From: a virus
Reading direction: 5' to 3' (one strand)
Virus record (IMG/VR): IMGVR_UViG_3300027801_000067
Span: 1-36,816 of that record
Length of the DNA stretch: 36,816 nt
The notes under the pieces are model-generated. The model had not been told where the DNA came from, did no database searches, and saw only the letters and a list, made by a program, of their open reading frames with translations. This document shows, piece by piece, positions 23,893 to 36,022 of the stretch. The position numbers and the translations under genes are program-made. The first letter of the stretch is position 1, and each line of letters starts with the position of its first letter.

Positions 23893-25824
23893 CTATACTA
23901 TCTCACATGCTCCCCCTGAGCAAGCAAGCTCCTGTGAAGACACAGTATAATCATCACTTTCATACTCAGAAAGCTTAGTCCAATCAAGAACAGGCATCTT
24001 TTTAAGGAGTGCCTTGTACTCTTTTTGAGTACAGTCCTGATAAGGTGCTTGCTTATAAATGTGGTCAGAATAAGGTAGAAAAGAAACTCCTGAGATTGAA
24101 TCGAAGTTTTTATAGACAAAGGCTCCTACTTCTAACCATTCATCTTCTTTTACTGATATAGTTTGACTAACTTTATGTTCTGTAAATGCTTCGGTGTATA
24201 CTGTATGTAGCACAAGCTGATCGATAGCTCCTAAAGAGTCTCTACATAAAGCATTTTCTGGAGACTTCATTGGAAAAGAAAATACTGTTCCTGTCTCTGG
24301 CTTAACTACATCCTTCTCAAATGGAACTCCTTGTTTAATCATAAACTTTGTTATAGGATCTTTGTTGTCTCCTCTAACTGTACGGACATAATAAGGACTA
24401 TGCCTAGTATGTATTCCCGATGCTGAATTAACTAACTGACTAACTGTGCCACTTGGTTTGATTGCAGTAATAGCAGCTGAAGGATTGATACCAATCTGAT
24501 CTGACATCCATTGATTCTGACCTTTAGCTACAGCTTTAAGAGCTTCTAACTTTTCAAAAAGACTTTCAATATCTCCTAAAGATAGTAAGTTATGTCCATT
24601 GGTAAGTTTGTTATCCATAATACCAGTAAGGGAAACACCAAGTAACCTTTCTTCTTCACAGTTTGTTTTCCACTTATTTGAAACATATCTAAAGTTTGTC
24701 AGCGTTGACTGCCAAGTACCTAGAACAGTTGCTAACCTAATCTTTCTCTGTATATCTTCCCAAGTATCCTCACTCCTTACAACTGCTTCAGTAAGGTTAC
24801 AGAACTCTCTAGGTCTAAGGATAATTTCAGAACAAGGATTGGTTCCAAAGTCATCCTGAAGTTCCCTACGTTTACCTAGTTTTTCTGTATGTTTCTTAGC
24901 ATTTGCAGAAGAGAAGATACCACGCTCACCACTCTTAGACATATACAAACTTCTCCACTCTTTTAGGAAAGTTCCGATGTCTGGTTTGGTGTGATAGTTT
25001 GCAGAGTTATTAGCTAAGTACCTCTGAGCATTCTCATAACCAAACTCACCAGATTTACAGGTTCGTAGTTCATCATCACCTAGATCTGAAAGAGATAACA
25101 ATGCACTCCTTCTTACTCCTCCAACTACTATACACTCTGCAACTTTACAGACTATATCATGACATTCTAGAGGACGAAGTTTTCGACCACAAGAACCTTG
25201 AAACTTTTCTATTGTAAAATTAAACAAAGCTTCCAAAGGTTCAGGTCCTGATGCTCTTCCTCCAAAGGTTTTAAGTACTACTCCTGCAGCTCTAACTGCT
25301 GACATATCCCAACTAGGAATTAGACCAGTACAGAGAAGAGAAATCAGTTCCCTATAAGCTTTAGCCCATCCAAGTTTAGAGTCTCTAACTTTTATGATTG
25401 TATCAGTAGGATATAATATATCAGGAATAGAAGGTAACTGCAGAGTATGCTTAGATTCTACAGAGAAACCTACTCCTGTTCCATTCATGAGGACATATAA
25501 AATCTCATCAAAAGCTTTCATAGAATCTATAGGAGTATAAGCACAGTTATAACCAGCTATATTTTCTTTCTTTAGGGCAGGTCCTGCGGTCATTAAGCAT
25601 CTCATTGAGGGCATAATTTGTAAGGAAAGTACCGCTTCTTCCAGTTCCATCCTAAGCTTCTTAGGAATTTCGTAAGAAAAATTTTCCTGTAAATGTTCCT
25701 CAAAGAATTTAAAGTATCTAGCAACTGTTTCTTCCCATGTTTCTCTTCTTCCTTTTTCAGGAACCCATCTGGAATAACGACTCAGATGTATATACTCTTG
25801 ATACTGGCTTGGTAATTTATTCAT
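23893..25824 (-). CDS. nrdJ: Class II (adenosylcobalamin-dependent) ribonucleotide reductase
   Basis: A 643-residue monomeric class II reductase of the Lactobacillus leichmannii RTPR type (739 residues), which converts ribonucleotides to deoxyribonucleotides using vitamin B12 coenzyme. The N-terminal LSRYSRWVPEKGRRETWEE is typical. C94 (GYNCAYTP) and C342 (FCNLTE) are the expected redox pair, and C331 in NPCSE with E333 is the thiyl-radical site. ITAIKPSGTVSQLVNSASGI is the phosphate-binding region. The C-terminal CSGGAC (C635, C640) is the swinging-tail thiol pair that re-reduces the active site. The protein is about 100 residues shorter than RTPR but all catalytic residues are present. The start is chosen by AGAGG upstream, and the ATG overlaps the preceding stop by 8 bases (ATGAATAA). 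It supplies dNTPs for phage replication and requires host-provided cobalamin. Confidence 0.95.
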   Translation of the reverse strand: MNKLPSQYQEYIHLSRYSRWVPEKGRRETWEETVARYFKFFEEHLQENFSYEIPKKLRMELEEAVLSLQIMPSMRCLMTAGPALKKENIAGYNCAYTPIDSMKAFDEILYVLMNGTGVGFSVESKHTLQLPSIPDILYPTDTIIKVRDSKLGWAKAYRELISLLCTGLIPSWDMSAVRAAGVVLKTFGGRASGPEPLEALFNFTIEKFQGSCGRKLRPLECHDIVCKVAECIVVGGVRRSALLSLSDLGDDELRTCKSGEFGYENAQRYLANNSANYHTKPDIGTFLKEWRSLYMSKSGERGIFSSANAKKHTEKLGKRRELQDDFGTNPCSEIILRPREFCNLTEAVVRSEDTWEDIQRKIRLATVLGTWQSTLTNFRYVSNKWKTNCEEERLLGVSLTGIMDNKLTNGHNLLSLGDIESLFEKLEALKAVAKGQNQWMSDQIGINPSAAITAIKPSGTVSQLVNSASGIHTRHSPYYVRTVRGDNKDPITKFMIKQGVPFEKDVVKPETGTVFSFPMKSPENALCRDSLGAIDQLVLHTVYTEAFTEHKVSQTISVKEDEWLEVGAFVYKNFDSISGVSFLPYSDHIYKQAPYQDCTQKEYKALLKKMPVLDWTKLSEYESDDYTVSSQELACSGGACEIV

Positions 25825-26383
25825 TTTTCATCCTCTCTTTTTCAATTAGTTTTTCTAAATAAGTTTGAGCTTTTAACAAGTCGTTAAGTCCACCTTTGAA
25901 TTGATAACGAGATACATACTTGATGATGTTTCCTTCTATAAAATCTAACTCGTTAGCTGTAATATAATCAAGAGGCGTTATACCTAATCCTTGATAGTGC
26001 TTTGGTTTAGTTATCTGTTCTTCTTTAGTTTGAAGATCAGCTACATCCTTTAATCCTGGAGGTAATGTACTTTTAGGATCATTCCTAAATGCATAACCTA
26101 ATGGATCTCTGGTCATTTCTTTTACATGTGTATCTACCTGATCACCTATAGATACATAGGATTGAGTCTGTGCATCCCATTGTTGAACAGGCTTGACAAC
26201 ATCTACTAGAGATTGAACCCTTGGAGAGTTTCGCAGAATATTTTTAATATTATTCTGATCATCTCTTCCAAACCCTTCGTTAGCTAAGGGATGCTTTAAA
26301 CTAGAGTCAACGTAGTCTCTCCATTGTTTATTTTGTTTCTGAGATTTCTTTCTTTCTATCTCATCTAGATCATAATTACTCAT
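25817..26383 (-). CDS. DUF3310 protein, T7 gp1.7 nucleotide-kinase-like C-terminus
   Basis: A 188-residue protein. I place the start at the ATG at 26383 (MSNYDLDEIERKK), because GGAGG lies 5 bases before it. The upstream in-frame ATG at 26395 overlaps that GGAGG itself. The C-terminal 65 residues match DUF3310: KPKHYQGLGITPLDYI, ELDFIEGNIIKYVSRYQFKG, then GLNDLLKAQTYLEKLI. This domain occurs in T7 gp1.7, which acts as a nucleotide kinase on dGMP and dTMP. The N-terminal 120 residues are polar and not recognised. The position directly before the reductase supports a nucleotide-metabolism role, but the catalytic activity is inferred from T7. Confidence 0.85.
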   Translation of the reverse strand: MSNYDLDEIERKKSQKQNKQWRDYVDSSLKHPLANEGFGRDDQNNIKNILRNSPRVQSLVDVVKPVQQWDAQTQSYVSIGDQVDTHVKEMTRDPLGYAFRNDPKSTLPPGLKDVADLQTKEEQITKPKHYQGLGITPLDYITANELDFIEGNIIKYVSRYQFKGGLNDLLKAQTYLEKLIEKERMKNE

Positions 26384-26552
26384 CGAAACCTCCATTATAA
26401 TCTCTCATGAAAGTATCAAAATCATCTGCCAAATCATCAGGATCAGGCTCATTTTCTATGTCCCATTTTAAATGTGCTTCTAAAACTTTTCCGGTTAGAG
26501 TAACCATTTTTCCCCACTTTCTTTCGTAAGCTCCTCCATCATAGTTAGACAT
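26376..26552 (-). CDS. Hypothetical 58-residue acidic protein
   Basis: A longer frame opens at 26627, but GGAG 5 bases before the ATG at 26552 marks the likely start, giving MSNYDGGAYERKWGKMVTLT. The protein ends with a strongly acidic segment (DIENEPDPDDLADDFDTFMR). It overlaps the exonuclease gene by 8 bases (ATGTCTAA) and the next gene by 8 bases (ATGAGTAA). Its first residues (MSNYD..-YERK) resemble those of the next gene product (MSNYDLDEIERKK). Function is unknown. Confidence 0.7.
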   Translation of the reverse strand: MSNYDGGAYERKWGKMVTLTGKVLEAHLKWDIENEPDPDDLADDFDTFMRDYNGGFDE

Positions 26553-27303
26553 GTGGACTCCATAGTTTAACTTCTTCGGTTTGCTTATTGTACTCACACT
26601 TCCTGAGTATCCTTGCCATACGAGCATTCAAGATAGCATCTTTTTCTTTTAGTCCTGCTTTCTCATACCTAGTTACTACAGTTTTCCAGAGGTCTTCTCC
26701 TTTTGTAGTAGCAGATCTTAATAACTTTTCTGCTGTTACTTTACCTACACTAGGACAACCCTTATAGTTATCAACTGTATCTCCTGTTAAAGTTTGAGCA
26801 AAGAAATTAAAGTCAGCTTCTTTTTCCGATAAAGTATATAACTCCTTAGTCTTTAGATTCCAATGTAATCCTGGAATAGTTAGGAGATCTTTATCTTCAC
26901 TTACAATGACATAATCATTTGTTAAACTATCAGTAGTACCAATGATTCCTATTACATCATCAGCTTCTAAGTTTGTAATTTGTTTGAAGGTATATTTATC
27001 CTTACAGTATTCTAATGCTCCTGTAAAACATAAAGGTTTTCTTCCTCCTCTTCGGTTAGCTTTATACTCAGGATTAATTTCTTTCCGATAGTTCTTTTTG
27101 TCAGAGAAACAAAGGATACTTCTATCAGCTTTCATCTCTTCAACTATTAGACTAACTTGATCGTCAATTATAATCTTTACTTTCTGAAGATCAGACCATA
27201 ATATCCATTGATCGTTACCCCAATTCACTTCTTCTTCTGCTACTCTACACGCTTTATAAAGTATGATGTCTGCATCTATTACTGCTACTCTTTCTTTTTT
27301 CAT
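26545..27303 (-). CDS. 5'-3' exonuclease, T7 gp6 homologue
   Basis: A 252-residue member of the PIN/FEN 5' nuclease superfamily, like T7 gp6, which removes RNA primers and degrades host DNA. Metal-binding acidic residues are visible: D10 and D12 (VIDADIILY), E113/D115/D116 (NLEADDVIGI), D137/D139 (SEDKDLL), and D175/D178 in GDTVDNYKGCPSVGKVTAEK, which leads into the helix-hairpin-helix DNA-binding motif. NPEYKANRRGGRKP is the conserved arch/substrate region. AGAGGAAAT precedes the ATG. It lies downstream of the polymerase and the PD-(D/E)XK nuclease, the usual T7 order apart from the inserted nuclease. Confidence 0.94.
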   Translation of the reverse strand: MKKERVAVIDADIILYKACRVAEEEVNWGNDQWILWSDLQKVKIIIDDQVSLIVEEMKADRSILCFSDKKNYRKEINPEYKANRRGGRKPLCFTGALEYCKDKYTFKQITNLEADDVIGIIGTTDSLTNDYVIVSEDKDLLTIPGLHWNLKTKELYTLSEKEADFNFFAQTLTGDTVDNYKGCPSVGKVTAEKLLRSATTKGEDLWKTVVTRYEKAGLKEKDAILNARMARILRKCEYNKQTEEVKLWSPHV

Positions 27304-27311
27304 ATTTCCTC

Positions 27312-27857
27312 TTATAGTTGTGGTGGATTATTAAAAGTTTCAGGATCAGTTAGATCGTAAGAATAATTTTCATAATCTTTAATTATTACAGTCTTACTAT
27401 ACTTTATTGCAGAGTAAGGAATAATGTATATTTTTAGAAACTTTACTATAAATAAAAATTCAAAATCATTTTCACCATAAGAAAACATTTCTCTATTACT
27501 ATTAATACCTTTTGAGTTATGTCTTCTTCGTTTTAAATAAATAGAATCTTTTTTTTCTGTTGCTTTAACTTGAATTGGAATCCATTTATTATCGTGGTGA
27601 ATTACAAAATCACAGCTACTACTAGGATTACATGGCTCAAAGATATCATACTCCCATCTATGTAGTAGGTAACGCACAAGATCTTCTCCTGCTAACCCTA
27701 TAGTTTGATTAGTTCTTCCTACTTTGGATAGTGGATTAATGGGTTTCTGCCCAAGTTGTTCCGATTGAGTACTCTCCTGAGAGTGGTATTCTGAGTCCCA
27801 ATCCAATCCCTGTAGTGGTAATTGCCTCGACACATAGTCTACCGATTTCTTCTGCAT
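27312..27857 (-). CDS. PD-(D/E)XK nuclease overlapping DNA polymerase gene
   Basis: A 181-residue protein. Its core from residue 52 (TIGLAGEDLVRYLLHRWEYD, SSSCDFVIHHDNKWIPIQVK) shows the PD-(D/E)XK pattern: E58, D83, and Q96-V-K98, where Q replaces the usual E/D of ExK. Then come the strand FLFIVKF and KIYIIP. This layout fits the Pfam PD-(D/E)XK endonuclease group that includes intron-type homing enzymes such as I-Ssp6803I. The ATG at 27857 has AAGGAGAAC directly upstream, so the first 41 codons overlap the 3' end of the DNA polymerase gene by 122 bases in a different frame. No alternative ATG precedes the nuclease core. It may be a free-standing homing endonuclease, or a repair/recombination or host-DNA nuclease. 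T7 has no equivalent here. Confidence 0.82.
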   Translation of the reverse strand: MQKKSVDYVSRQLPLQGLDWDSEYHSQESTQSEQLGQKPINPLSKVGRTNQTIGLAGEDLVRYLLHRWEYDIFEPCNPSSSCDFVIHHDNKWIPIQVKATEKKDSIYLKRRRHNSKGINSNREMFSYGENDFEFLFIVKFLKIYIIPYSAIKYSKTVIIKDYENYSYDLTDPETFNNPPQL

Positions 27858-29469
27858 AGTTCTCCTTTACTGTTAGTTGTACTTCATCATGAACAAACGC
27901 AACCTGAGAATAATCTTCACCACGTTTGAACCCTTTTTGATCAAGTAGTGAATGCATTTCCACTACCCATTGCTTACAAATAATAGCTCCTGCAGATTGT
28001 AGGAGTGTATTCAGAGCTGCATGTTTAGATCTAACTGGTACTCGTCTTCCGTCTAATCCTATGATAGATCCTTGTGCTTCAGCTTTCTTTTGTACCTTAG
28101 TCCTGAGTTGTTTAAGGGCTGGAAGTTGAGAGAGAAATTTCTTCTTTAATATCTTTCCTTCTTTCTGTCCCTTACCAACAATTTCCCCAATCTTTTGATC
28201 TCCTGCACCATACAGAAAACCATAAATGAAGGTCTTCGCTTGATCCCTCGTAGCCAAACCAGCTGCCTCTTGGTTGACAGTATGTATATCCTCCTCCAAC
28301 AATTTCTTACCATATATACCATCATCATAGTGCGCCAAATAATGAGATAAACACCGCAACTCAAGCCCAGAGACATCAATCCCCAATAGTTTCTGTCCTC
28401 TATTCGGAACAAATAAAGACCTGCAGTCTTTCCCATAGGGTGCATTTGTATTTGGAACCTGAGCGAGGTTCGGATTTGAGTGAGATGCCCTAGAAGTCGA
28501 TGCTCCCATCGTGTTGACTCTGCCATGTAACCTCCCATGTTTCACTAGTTTTAGCCATGCTTGATCCCCTTCAGCAAGTTGACCAATGCGTTTATTTAAC
28601 ATCAAGTATTCAGACATTAGCTTTGCTTCTGGATACTCTAACTTTTTGAGAATACTCTCATCAACTTTAGCTTCACCTGATGGAGTGAAGTCTCTCGGTT
28701 TCCAACCTCTAAGTTCCTTGAGTCGTTTTGCAATGTGTTGTCTTGAGTTAGGATTGAATTCAATAATCTTAACCTTAGAATAGAGTTCATTCCTCCGTAG
28801 TCCCTCGTTAATAAGCCACGAGCCAAATACATTTCGGAGTTTCTCTCCGAGTTCTTCTCTTCTTGCTGCCAGCTTATGATATAATTCAACAGCTTTTTCT
28901 TCATTAAATGCAAATCCATTTTTCTCCTGTTGGTTACAAATTTCAGCTATGTTATGTTCCAATCGTATACTATTTTCACTTGGTAAATGGAGCCTTAAAT
29001 TTTTCCATAAAATATGCGTTAGTTCCACATCATTAATACAGTAATCAACCATCTCCTGAGAAAACTCTTTGAAATCAGAATTTTTACCAAAGGTTCCCTT
29101 GTTATGATTCAGTCTGTATCCCCATGCTGCTAAAGAATGTGATCCCCAAAACTTAGGTTCCAATATTTTAACTGCAGAATCTTCACTCCTCAGATCTGAA
29201 TGAATTAATCGAGACAAAATAAGAGTATCTGTAACCTGTTCTACAGGAATCACAAGACCATATAGTCTCCTCAGAACTTCCAAGTCAAATCCTAAGACAT
29301 TATGACCTACTATATGATTAGCTTTTAGTACAACTAAAGCTTTCTCAATCTGTTCTTTTGAAATAGCAACTTCTACTCCAAAATGTTGACTCTTCATTAC
29401 TATACAATGAACCTTAGTGACTGTATCTAAGAGTCCATCGGTTTCTATGTCTAGTATTATATTCTCCAT
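27736..29469 (-). CDS. Family A DNA polymerase, T7 gp5 homologue lacking thioredoxin-binding insert
   Basis: A 577-residue replicative polymerase with an active-site-intact 3'-5' exonuclease: D7/E9 (LDIETDG), D62 (HNVLGFDLE), Y143/D147 (DYCINDVE). Polymerase motifs follow: A at D365 (GIDVSGLELR), B at K412/Y416/Y420 (RDQAKTFIYGFLYGAG) and C at H527-D528-E529 (AFVHDEVQL). The C-terminus GTTWAETH matches the T7 end (PNWAICH). T7 gp5 has 704 residues. The stretch between SWLINEG (217-223) and EFNPNSRQHI (237-246) is about 13 residues, whereas T7 has about 75 there, its thioredoxin-binding domain. The ATG overlaps the helicase stop by one base, with GGAGGATTTCTA upstream. The last 122 bases are shared with the nuclease gene. 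Confidence 0.96.
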   Translation of the reverse strand: MENIILDIETDGLLDTVTKVHCIVMKSQHFGVEVAISKEQIEKALVVLKANHIVGHNVLGFDLEVLRRLYGLVIPVEQVTDTLILSRLIHSDLRSEDSAVKILEPKFWGSHSLAAWGYRLNHNKGTFGKNSDFKEFSQEMVDYCINDVELTHILWKNLRLHLPSENSIRLEHNIAEICNQQEKNGFAFNEEKAVELYHKLAARREELGEKLRNVFGSWLINEGLRRNELYSKVKIIEFNPNSRQHIAKRLKELRGWKPRDFTPSGEAKVDESILKKLEYPEAKLMSEYLMLNKRIGQLAEGDQAWLKLVKHGRLHGRVNTMGASTSRASHSNPNLAQVPNTNAPYGKDCRSLFVPNRGQKLLGIDVSGLELRCLSHYLAHYDDGIYGKKLLEEDIHTVNQEAAGLATRDQAKTFIYGFLYGAGDQKIGEIVGKGQKEGKILKKKFLSQLPALKQLRTKVQKKAEAQGSIIGLDGRRVPVRSKHAALNTLLQSAGAIICKQWVVEMHSLLDQKGFKRGEDYSQVAFVHDEVQLTVKENYAEEIGRLCVEAITTTGIGLGLRIPLSGEYSIGTTWAETH

Positions 29470-31103: not shown

Positions 31104-31475
31104 CTATTTCTCATGTATCCATGAATTAGGTATTATTGATTCGGCATATAAGAAATTGTACTTTATACACCATTCCTCACAGGTGAATCTTCCTCCTTGA
31201 ACTTTACTTCTTAGTCTTTGGAATACAAATCTAATATCTAGTTCAGGATGTTGAGCTTTGATGAGTTTATGCTTTCGCTGGTCATCAGCTTTAAACCATC
31301 CCTTGACTTCAATTAGGATTCCGTTAGGAAGCAGAAAATCAGGTTGATACTTCTTTGGGACTGAATACCCTATACGGCTCAGTTTTGGTTCAAAAGTAAA
31401 CCTAACTCTCTGCTTTTCTAGTTGGTCTGCAACTAGTCCTTCTAAATCAGATCTATAACGATTAAAAATCGTCAT
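31104..31475 (-). CDS. Endonuclease I (Holliday-junction resolvase), T7 gp3 homologue
   Basis: A 123-residue protein that aligns along most of its length with T7 gp3 (149 residues), which cuts branched DNA and degrades host DNA. Shared blocks: YRSDLEGLVADQLE, QPDFLLPNGILIEVKGWF, DDQRKHKLIKAQHPELDIRF, IIPNSWI. The expected catalytic residues are present: E12, D46, E56 and K58 (T7 E20, D55, E65, K67). The start overlaps the upstream SSB gene by 14 bases, with only a weak GGA ahead of it, so coupled translation is likely. Confidence 0.96.
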   Translation of the reverse strand: MTIFNRYRSDLEGLVADQLEKQRVRFTFEPKLSRIGYSVPKKYQPDFLLPNGILIEVKGWFKADDQRKHKLIKAQHPELDIRFVFQRLRSKVQGGRFTCEEWCIKYNFLYAESIIPNSWIHEK

Positions 31476-34748: not shown

Positions 34749-34901
34749 TTAGAACTCCTCTTGTTTTATTGTTATAGAATTACCTTTCATTATATTATAA
34801 AATATAACGATAAGCATTACAAGAATTCCTGATAAAAATCCAAATCCAAAGATAGTAAAATATACTAATAGATCTGGAAGTATTAAGAACCATCTACCCA
34901 T
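34749..34901 (-). CDS. 50-residue single-pass membrane miniprotein
   Basis: The frame starts at the ATG at 34901, inside the methyltransferase 3' end (19-base overlap), and its TAA touches the RNA polymerase ATG with no gap. The protein is MGRWFLILPD, then an almost unbroken hydrophobic run (LLVYFTIFGFGFLSGILVML, IVIFYNI), then a short polar tail (MKGNSITIKQEEF). One long transmembrane helix is likely. The Shine-Dalgarno is weak (AGGT about 9 bases upstream). Its last codons carry the GAGGAG that serves the RNA polymerase gene, so it may also act as a coupling cistron. Possible roles include superinfection exclusion or host envelope modification, but I do not recognise it. Confidence 0.65.
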   Translation of the reverse strand: MGRWFLILPDLLVYFTIFGFGFLSGILVMLIVIFYNIMKGNSITIKQEEF

Positions 34902-36022
34902 AAGCGTTTACCTATTGCTTCAATTACTGGTAAAGTCACGCTATTACCAGCCATTTTAAAGAGTTGACTATCTGATATGCCTAATTCCTTTCCCTTCTCA
35001 TACAGAGAGTCTGGCGCACCCTGAAGCCTAAAGAATTCTAAGGGTGTGAGCCTTCGTAGTACCTTTCCATCAAATATAGATTGCTCTATACTTTTTCTTG
35101 TGGTCAGGGTTCCTACGATAGGCTCCTTTTTTGGAACAATTACTTTTCCCCTTCTTGGAGAAAAATCTTTTCCAGTTTTTGCTTTGTGTTCTTTCCTAAT
35201 ATTCTTAGCTTCATCTGATCTTATTTCAGTAAGAACAAAAGGTTGTCTGTTACCTCCAGAACATGAGTTTATAGTAGGTGATATTCCTTCATCAGAATAA
35301 ACTCTATCATTTGAATGCTTAGGTTTATTGAGTTGAAGAATTGTCATTCCACTATGGTTTCCTCCTGTGTGTCCTCCTGCACTTATTGTTCTAGCAATTG
35401 CGGTTTTTGCTGACTCCGACTTGCAAGAGTTCTCGTTAGTTTCTCCCATGAGAGGAAATACTTTGGGTCTGGATTTGTTTCTAAGATATCCGATAACGAA
35501 GACTCGTTCTCTGTTTTGTGGAACTCCGAAATTCTTGCTGTTAACAGTTTGCCATTCTGCATCGTACCCCAATTCTGAAAGCCTGTTGAGCATGGAACTA
35601 AAAACTTCTCCTTTCCATTTGCCAGACGATAGAACTCCTTTGACTTGTTCAAGAAAAAGAATGCGAGGTTTTTTAACTTGTATGATTTTGCAAAAGTGTA
35701 TAAACAAGTCACCGCCACATTTGGTTTGATTAAAGGGATCTTCTTTCCTTTTTCCAGCGATACTGAACGCAGGACAGGGTAGACCTGCACAGGCAATGTC
35801 GAAATCTGGCAAGATACTTGGGTCTTCTGCAATTTTTCTGATGTCTCCATAGTTTTTGCTCTCATAATTTCCTCTATTAGTATAGTTATCGATTAAGGCG
35901 AACTCTTCAGCCAGCCAATTACTCCATTTATCTACTTCTGCATGACCTACTTGTTTATGTCCTGCTTGTCTCATACCTAGTCCAAACAGGTCTAAACCAC
36001 TTGCGAATGAAAAGAATTTCAT
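34883..36022 (-). CDS. C5-cytosine DNA methyltransferase (Dcm-like)
   Basis: A 379-residue enzyme with the C5-methyltransferase motif order: I (FSFASGLDLFGLGM, residues 4-17), IV with the catalytic cysteine C83 (AGLPCPAFSIAG), VI (ILFLEQVKGV, where E125 is the base-binding Glu), VIII (QNRERVFVIGY), a target-recognition region about 185-340, IX (RRLTPLEFFRLQGAPDSL) and X (GNSVTLPVIEAIGKRL). It methylates cytosine at carbon 5 in a sequence I cannot predict, most likely to shield phage DNA from host restriction. Motif VI reads EQV where most members have ENV. No partner endonuclease gene is adjacent. AAGGAGAAC lies 5 bases before the ATG and also encodes the end of the zinc-ribbon gene. Confidence 0.95.
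   Translation of the reverse strand: MKFFSFASGLDLFGLGMRQAGHKQVGHAEVDKWSNWLAEEFALIDNYTNRGNYESKNYGDIRKIAEDPSILPDFDIACAGLPCPAFSIAGKRKEDPFNQTKCGGDLFIHFCKIIQVKKPRILFLEQVKGVLSSGKWKGEVFSSMLNRLSELGYDAEWQTVNSKNFGVPQNRERVFVIGYLRNKSRPKVFPLMGETNENSCKSESAKTAIARTISAGGHTGGNHSGMTILQLNKPKHSNDRVYSDEGISPTINSCSGGNRQPFVLTEIRSDEAKNIRKEHKAKTGKDFSPRRGKVIVPKKEPIVGTLTTRKSIEQSIFDGKVLRRLTPLEFFRLQGAPDSLYEKGKELGISDSQLFKMAGNSVTLPVIEAIGKRLWVDGS

Follow-up and report, generated by a model that had tools for sequence, protein, structure and literature searches.

The window analyzed here, the whole 36,816-nt stretch of viral DNA in IMG/VR record IMGVR_UViG_3300027801_000067, carries a nuclease gene whose start is nested in the DNA polymerase gene and whose product is probably (we estimate roughly 0.6, from sequence comparisons and structural models) a free-standing homing-type PD-(D/E)XK endonuclease of the T7 gp5.3/I-Ssp6803I type, fixed beside its probable target gene. 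Such an assignment would give a concrete, testable identity to a long-uncharacterized slot of T7-like phages (gene 5.3) and connect it with an uncommon family of homing endonucleases. It would also describe a homing-type gene that overlaps its probable target and persists throughout a clade of marine phages. The relevant features of the window are:

26545–27303, minus strand: T7 gp6-type exonuclease gene, which borders the slot downstream (phrog_107, E 2.7e-63)
27312–27857, minus strand: PD-(D/E)XK nuclease gene, 181 aa, T7 gene 5.3 homologue with its start nested in the polymerase gene (PF11645, phrog_5018, fold match to I-Ssp6803I)
27315–27734, minus strand: nuclease residues 42–181, predicted PD-(D/E)XK fold from about residue 46, the segment swapped between phages (AlphaFold2, Foldseek, allele comparisons)
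27564–27572, minus strand: Gln96-Val-Lys98, putative QxK catalytic motif, Q and K invariant (alignment and PDB profile match)
27609–27611, minus strand: Asp83, invariant, putative metal ligand (alignment of relatives)
27684–27686, minus strand: Glu58, invariant, putative active-site residue in helix 1 (alignment of relatives)
27736–27857, minus strand: dual-coding overlap of 122 nt, nuclease residues 1–41, predicted disordered (ORF coordinates, starts in relatives, AlphaFold2)
27862–27867, minus strand: Shine-Dalgarno sequence AAGGAG, spelled as polymerase Lys-Glu codons (sequence and codon bias across relatives)
27736–29469, minus strand: gene of the family-A DNA polymerase, 577 aa, within which the nuclease starts; inferred target gene (PF00476, E 3.4e-47)

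The polymerase and nuclease ORFs have positions 27736–27857 in common, exactly the 122-nt overlap with the polymerase 3′ end reported in the initial annotation. The nuclease is read in the +1 frame relative to the polymerase, whose C-terminus is matched through the last position of the PF00476 profile. The strong start signal that the same annotation had placed inside the polymerase gene is likewise seen: AAGGAG lies four bases ahead of the ATG at 27855–27857, and its codons are favored at this place in relatives. Three in-frame starts precede the nuclease domain (ATG at −121, GTG at −97, and TTG at −70, relative to the polymerase stop), and because all three lie inside the polymerase gene, a nested start is required unless the ribosome shifts from the polymerase into the nuclease frame, for which we found no evidence. 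We infer that ribosomes initiate on the nuclease independently, at a binding site within the polymerase gene.

The ATG at −121 was present in all 25 distinct relatives (window included) with 73–100% polymerase identity, and nested starts were also found at −115 in a sampled group with 60–62% polymerase identity and at −121 or −127 in a group with 55–56%. A separate scan of marine loci, many of them on the same contigs as the 25-relative comparison set, found the polymerase directly upstream and a nested start at −121, −115, or −127 in 71 of 71 cases. Loci L141 and L152 were considered as exceptions and rejected, their ORFs having the usual nested starts; in L141 the polymerase frame is split near residue 310 (2290–2347), by sequencing error or a true frameshift. 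Since every analyzable IMG/VR relative has the nested start, even those with polymerase identity as low as about 55%, it is old and not a recent insertion. The polymerase codons that form the Shine-Dalgarno sequence are GAG in 21 of 25 and AAG in 18 of 25 relatives, as compared with about one third each polymerase-wide, and no relative carrying the full nuclease gene has a broken copy. Openness of the +1 frame by itself is weak evidence for the overlap: the frame stays open by chance in about 9% of synonymous redraws per genome, and about 31% of windows elsewhere in the polymerase are open in it. Synonymous constraint in the overlap was mild (0.283 vs. 0.373 codon differences), so we do not claim strong selection on the N-terminal 41 residues.

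The window protein matched the T7 gp5.3 family phrog_5018 over residues 51–157 (E 3.5e-12), sufficient for membership, and PF11645 (PDDEXK_5) at E 3.1e-5 with 24.5 bits, against a gathering cutoff of 26.1 bits that its homologues in T7 (42.1), L075 (47.8), MN05 (31.9), and a Klebsiella phage (41.4) all exceed. T7 gp5.3 itself gave E 1.1e-10 with PF11645 and 1.5e-46 with phrog_5018. The initial annotation had called the protein a PD-(D/E)XK nuclease with a QxK variant and suggested structure prediction as a check. An AlphaFold2 model built from an 18-sequence alignment (pLDDT 72.8 on average and >80 over most of the domain) confidently predicts a PD-(D/E)XK domain at residues 46–181 and disorder at residues 1–44 (pLDDT mostly <50). 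The best four Foldseek matches in the PDB were chains of the homing endonuclease I-Ssp6803I (E 6.8e-7, probability 1.00), and a profile search of PDB sequences likewise ranked 2ost_A first (E 4.6e-4, VQVK aligned); a single-sequence search of the same sequences gave no match. The leading Foldseek matches (I-Ssp6803I, RecU, Hjc, and EcoRV) all belong to the PD-(D/E)XK superfamily, and the predicted fold, with D83 and Q96-x-K98 invariant, fits the superfamily pattern of a restriction-like core that carries an acidic residue and [DEQ]xK on neighboring strands. Both sequence and fold similarity, including the Q-x-K variant, thus point to an I-Ssp6803I-like homing endonuclease, in support of the earlier call. 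All 18 diverged relatives compared, the most distant at about 32% identity, keep E58, D83, Q96, and K98, and the Q-V-K motif recurs in the T7, Klebsiella, Kuravirus, Bruynoghevirus, and PJNS034 homologues. Given its predicted disorder, the mild synonymous constraint, and its absence from the T7 homologue, the N-terminal extension looks like an overprinted tail and not a functional domain. NCBIfam profiles gave no match for the nuclease, PADLOC gave weak, local hits to PDC-S01 profiles, and T7 gp5.3, used as the query against bacterial and archaeal genome contigs, turned up no relative.

T7 had been said to have no nuclease at this position. This is incorrect, as gp5.3, a member of the same family (PF11645, phrog_5018), occupies the same slot. 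In T7, Kayfunavirus, a Klebsiella Molineuxvirinae phage, Kuravirus (whose neighboring gene we identified as a family-A polymerase), PJNS034, and Bruynoghevirus, the inspected homologues lie directly after the polymerase gene. Comparison of T7 with Serratia phage Pila, whose flanks are 95.5% identical, showed gene 5.3 to be cleanly missing from Pila, with insertion limits running from the polymerase stop to the gene 5.5 ribosome-binding site, and the SFPH2 copy is in the same way cleanly missing from CHRF_30116.2. Among relatives of T7 and Kayfunavirus the slot is empty, holds an HNH gene (T3, ST21, and Sal_R1S), or holds a PD-(D/E)XK gene; in relatives at about 42–48% polymerase identity it holds an EndoVII/HNH gene, a phrog_13596 protein, a small unrelated protein, or a PD-(D/E)XK gene. 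Within the window's clade, no relative lacked the nuclease gene wherever the slot was readable, and no empty slot was found. The comparison of polymerase loci with and without the gene, proposed as a way to find a sharp insertion boundary, therefore gave clean insertions in the T7/Pila and SFPH2/CHRF_30116.2 pairs and no empty site in the window's own clade; the optional character of a free-standing homing gene, missing from close relatives, is seen for the T7 and Kayfunavirus homologues only.

Other occupants of the slot were also recorded. In pelagiphages HTVC031P, HTVC025P, and HTVC109P it is taken by an uncharacterized phrog_13596 protein (L008 5715–6083, L009 5751–6128, and L010 5686–6078), whose E-x-K…TGN pattern could mark another PD-(D/E)XK nuclease. 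In two marine Autographiviridae (L007 5700–6212 and L012 5703–6176), EndoVII/HNH-type endonuclease genes in the same slot overlap the polymerase end by 29 nt.

The nuclease gene moves between phages independently of its flanking genes, as is expected of free-standing homing. L042 and L043 are 100% identical in their ssb, endonuclease I, helicase, and polymerase proteins and only 57% identical in the nuclease domain, although the L043 contig ends shortly past the difference and is the sole source of that allele. Counted from the polymerase stop, the difference lies within about +58 to +345, its limits falling in conserved stretches within the gene, and synonymous divergence (dS) is 0.009 in the polymerase vs. 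0.93 in the nuclease. The window and L002/L014 share 98% identity in helicase, 98% in polymerase, and 96% in exonuclease and 64% in the nuclease domain; L038 and L041 share 98, 95, and 59% in polymerase, exonuclease, and nuclease, respectively. The L037/L038 vs. L039/L041 and window vs. L002 contrasts each rest on several contigs, all contigs being metagenomic. The reverse pattern was also found: L004 and L019 are 93% identical in nuclease but 83% in polymerase (dS 0.11 and 0.83, respectively), and L020 and L023 carry near-identical nucleases in diverged backgrounds. Simple fast evolution of the nuclease was considered and rejected, because dS and dN both jump in swapped pairs and the opposite pattern occurs as well. 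AU tests on nuclease data rejected the polymerase groupings (p 0.02 to 1.7e-8) and those on polymerase data rejected the nuclease groupings (p 0.003 to below 1e-50), values that are optimistic in that the clades were picked after the trees were seen. The tree tests thus indicate that the nuclease did not share common descent with the polymerase. Close same-allele pairs gave dN/dS of 0.03–0.27, like the polymerase. Pairs such as L042/L043, the same throughout the sequenced stretch except for the nuclease, offer natural near-isogenic material for studying the role of the nuclease in phage competition.

The window and L002 also diverge sharply at 26033–26539 (orf83 and the N-terminal half of a DUF3310 protein), a second site of exchange within a stretch that is otherwise about 94% identical. 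Because recombination also occurs there, exchange alone is no proof of homing. Elsewhere in the window, a gene at 23893–25824 (minus strand) resembles a class II ribonucleotide reductase by a B12-dependent insertion domain match, with weak Pfam scores only. A DNA methyltransferase gene at 34883–36022 (minus strand) adjoins the phage RNA polymerase gene; it occurs in some but not all relatives and is split into two ORFs in the L025 record.

A nuclease of I-Ssp6803I type that sits next to the polymerase gene in unrelated phages, can be missing in one phage group, and is swapped between members of another has the look expected of a free-standing homing endonuclease. If so, the nuclease would be resident in the slot between the polymerase and exonuclease genes with its own ribosome-binding site inside the polymerase gene, its first 41 residues being an unstructured by-product of polymerase codons read in another frame and the residues from about 46 on folding, as predicted, into the nuclease. 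During co-infection with a related phage, the enzyme may break a specific site in or beside the 3′ end of the rival's polymerase gene or its nuclease allele. Donor-templated repair would then copy the nuclease segment across, so that the gene spreads (homing) and competing alleles replace one another. The overlap would tie the nuclease gene to the essential end of the polymerase and make clean loss hard, and competition may now be between alleles. A homing endonuclease had been proposed in the initial annotation, and the I-Ssp6803I match, polymerase adjacency, and gene mobility all favor it; against it, the classical empty recipient is absent from the window's clade. This absence and the long nested start are departures from textbook homing. 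In a further reading, which we hold to be doubtful, a homing-type locus fixed at the end of an essential gene would be kept by competition in which each allele attacks other-allele genomes at the polymerase–nuclease junction, with alleles and not presence or absence turning over. Only a few polymerase bases differ between L042 and L043, so self-protection by an altered polymerase target would depend on a change at one or two sites, unless the target is somewhere else.

The main rival is a former homing endonuclease, now domesticated for exclusion or DNA degradation and kept for the damage it does to rival phage or host DNA; its alleles would be swapped by routine homologous recombination within conserved flanks, and their diversity would be due to selection, without biased homing. 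That the gene is fixed, intact in every clade member, and under purifying selection also fits a useful resident function, and the L042/L043 swap limits in conserved stretches and the nearby orf83/DUF3310 divergence are what ordinary recombination would leave. We nevertheless consider this unlikely, though to be taken seriously, as T7 gene 5.3 is an optional insertion whose deletion T7 tolerates (PMC12153263) and the family keeps to the polymerase-adjacent slot in unrelated phages, as homing with a target gene predicts. The same dispensability weighs against a replication or repair nuclease, e.g., a Holliday-junction resolvase acting together with the neighboring polymerase and exonuclease. Co-location with replication genes and weaker fold matches to Hjc and RecU are in its favor, but I-Ssp6803I is clearly the better match by fold and profile; the window has a separate T7 endonuclease I-type gene (31104–31475; phrog_945, E 9.3e-40), and allele swapping would be odd for a housekeeping enzyme, making this role improbable. 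It is very improbable that the nuclease forms a restriction-like pair with the phage's own methyltransferase (phrog_116, E 7.4e-72), which would spare modified phage DNA while unmodified DNA is cut: 8 of 15 examined nuclease-bearing records, six of them 40–48 kb contigs of the marine clade, had no methyltransferase match and one more had a weak match only, so that the constant partner of a restriction-modification system is lacking.

Homing, as the preferred reading, has its closest precedents in four sets of nucleases. The T7 gene 5.3 protein shares with the window nuclease its family, the slot after the DNA polymerase, and the Q-V-K motif. It differs in length (118 aa, without the N-terminal extension), in starting 15 nt past the polymerase stop codon instead of 122 nt inside the polymerase gene, and in being missing from close relatives where the window gene is fixed in its clade. 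I-Ssp6803I (PDB 2OST), the PD-(D/E)XK homing endonuclease encoded by the group I intron in Synechocystis tRNA-fMet (PMC1995217), is the best fold and profile match in the PDB and has the D…QVK and Y..DFD stretches in common with the window protein at 17% identity in structural alignment. It is intron-encoded with a tRNA target, whereas the window gene is free-standing, with no group I intron found there by Rfam. Free-standing homing endonucleases are defined, with F-CphI as an example, in PMC6083498, and PMC10448857 and PMC3428280 note homing nucleases of T3 and T7-like phages that lie next to or within the polymerase gene; the T3 gene in the polymerase-adjacent slot is annotated as an HNH endonuclease. 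Free-standing or collaborative homing in T3 and T7-like phages shares with the window a nuclease gene between two conserved genes, next to its probable target, but the T3/T7-like and F-CphI enzymes are of HNH and EndoVII-like families, whereas the window's is a PD-(D/E)XK enzyme with no intron and no empty allele in its clade. Nuclease genes of the T5orf172 and HNH families also mark borders of genetic exchange between phages (PMC10448857); the window's gene, although of the PD-(D/E)XK superfamily and overlapping the polymerase, resembles them in being a nuclease locus at sharp exchange borders with turnover of alleles.
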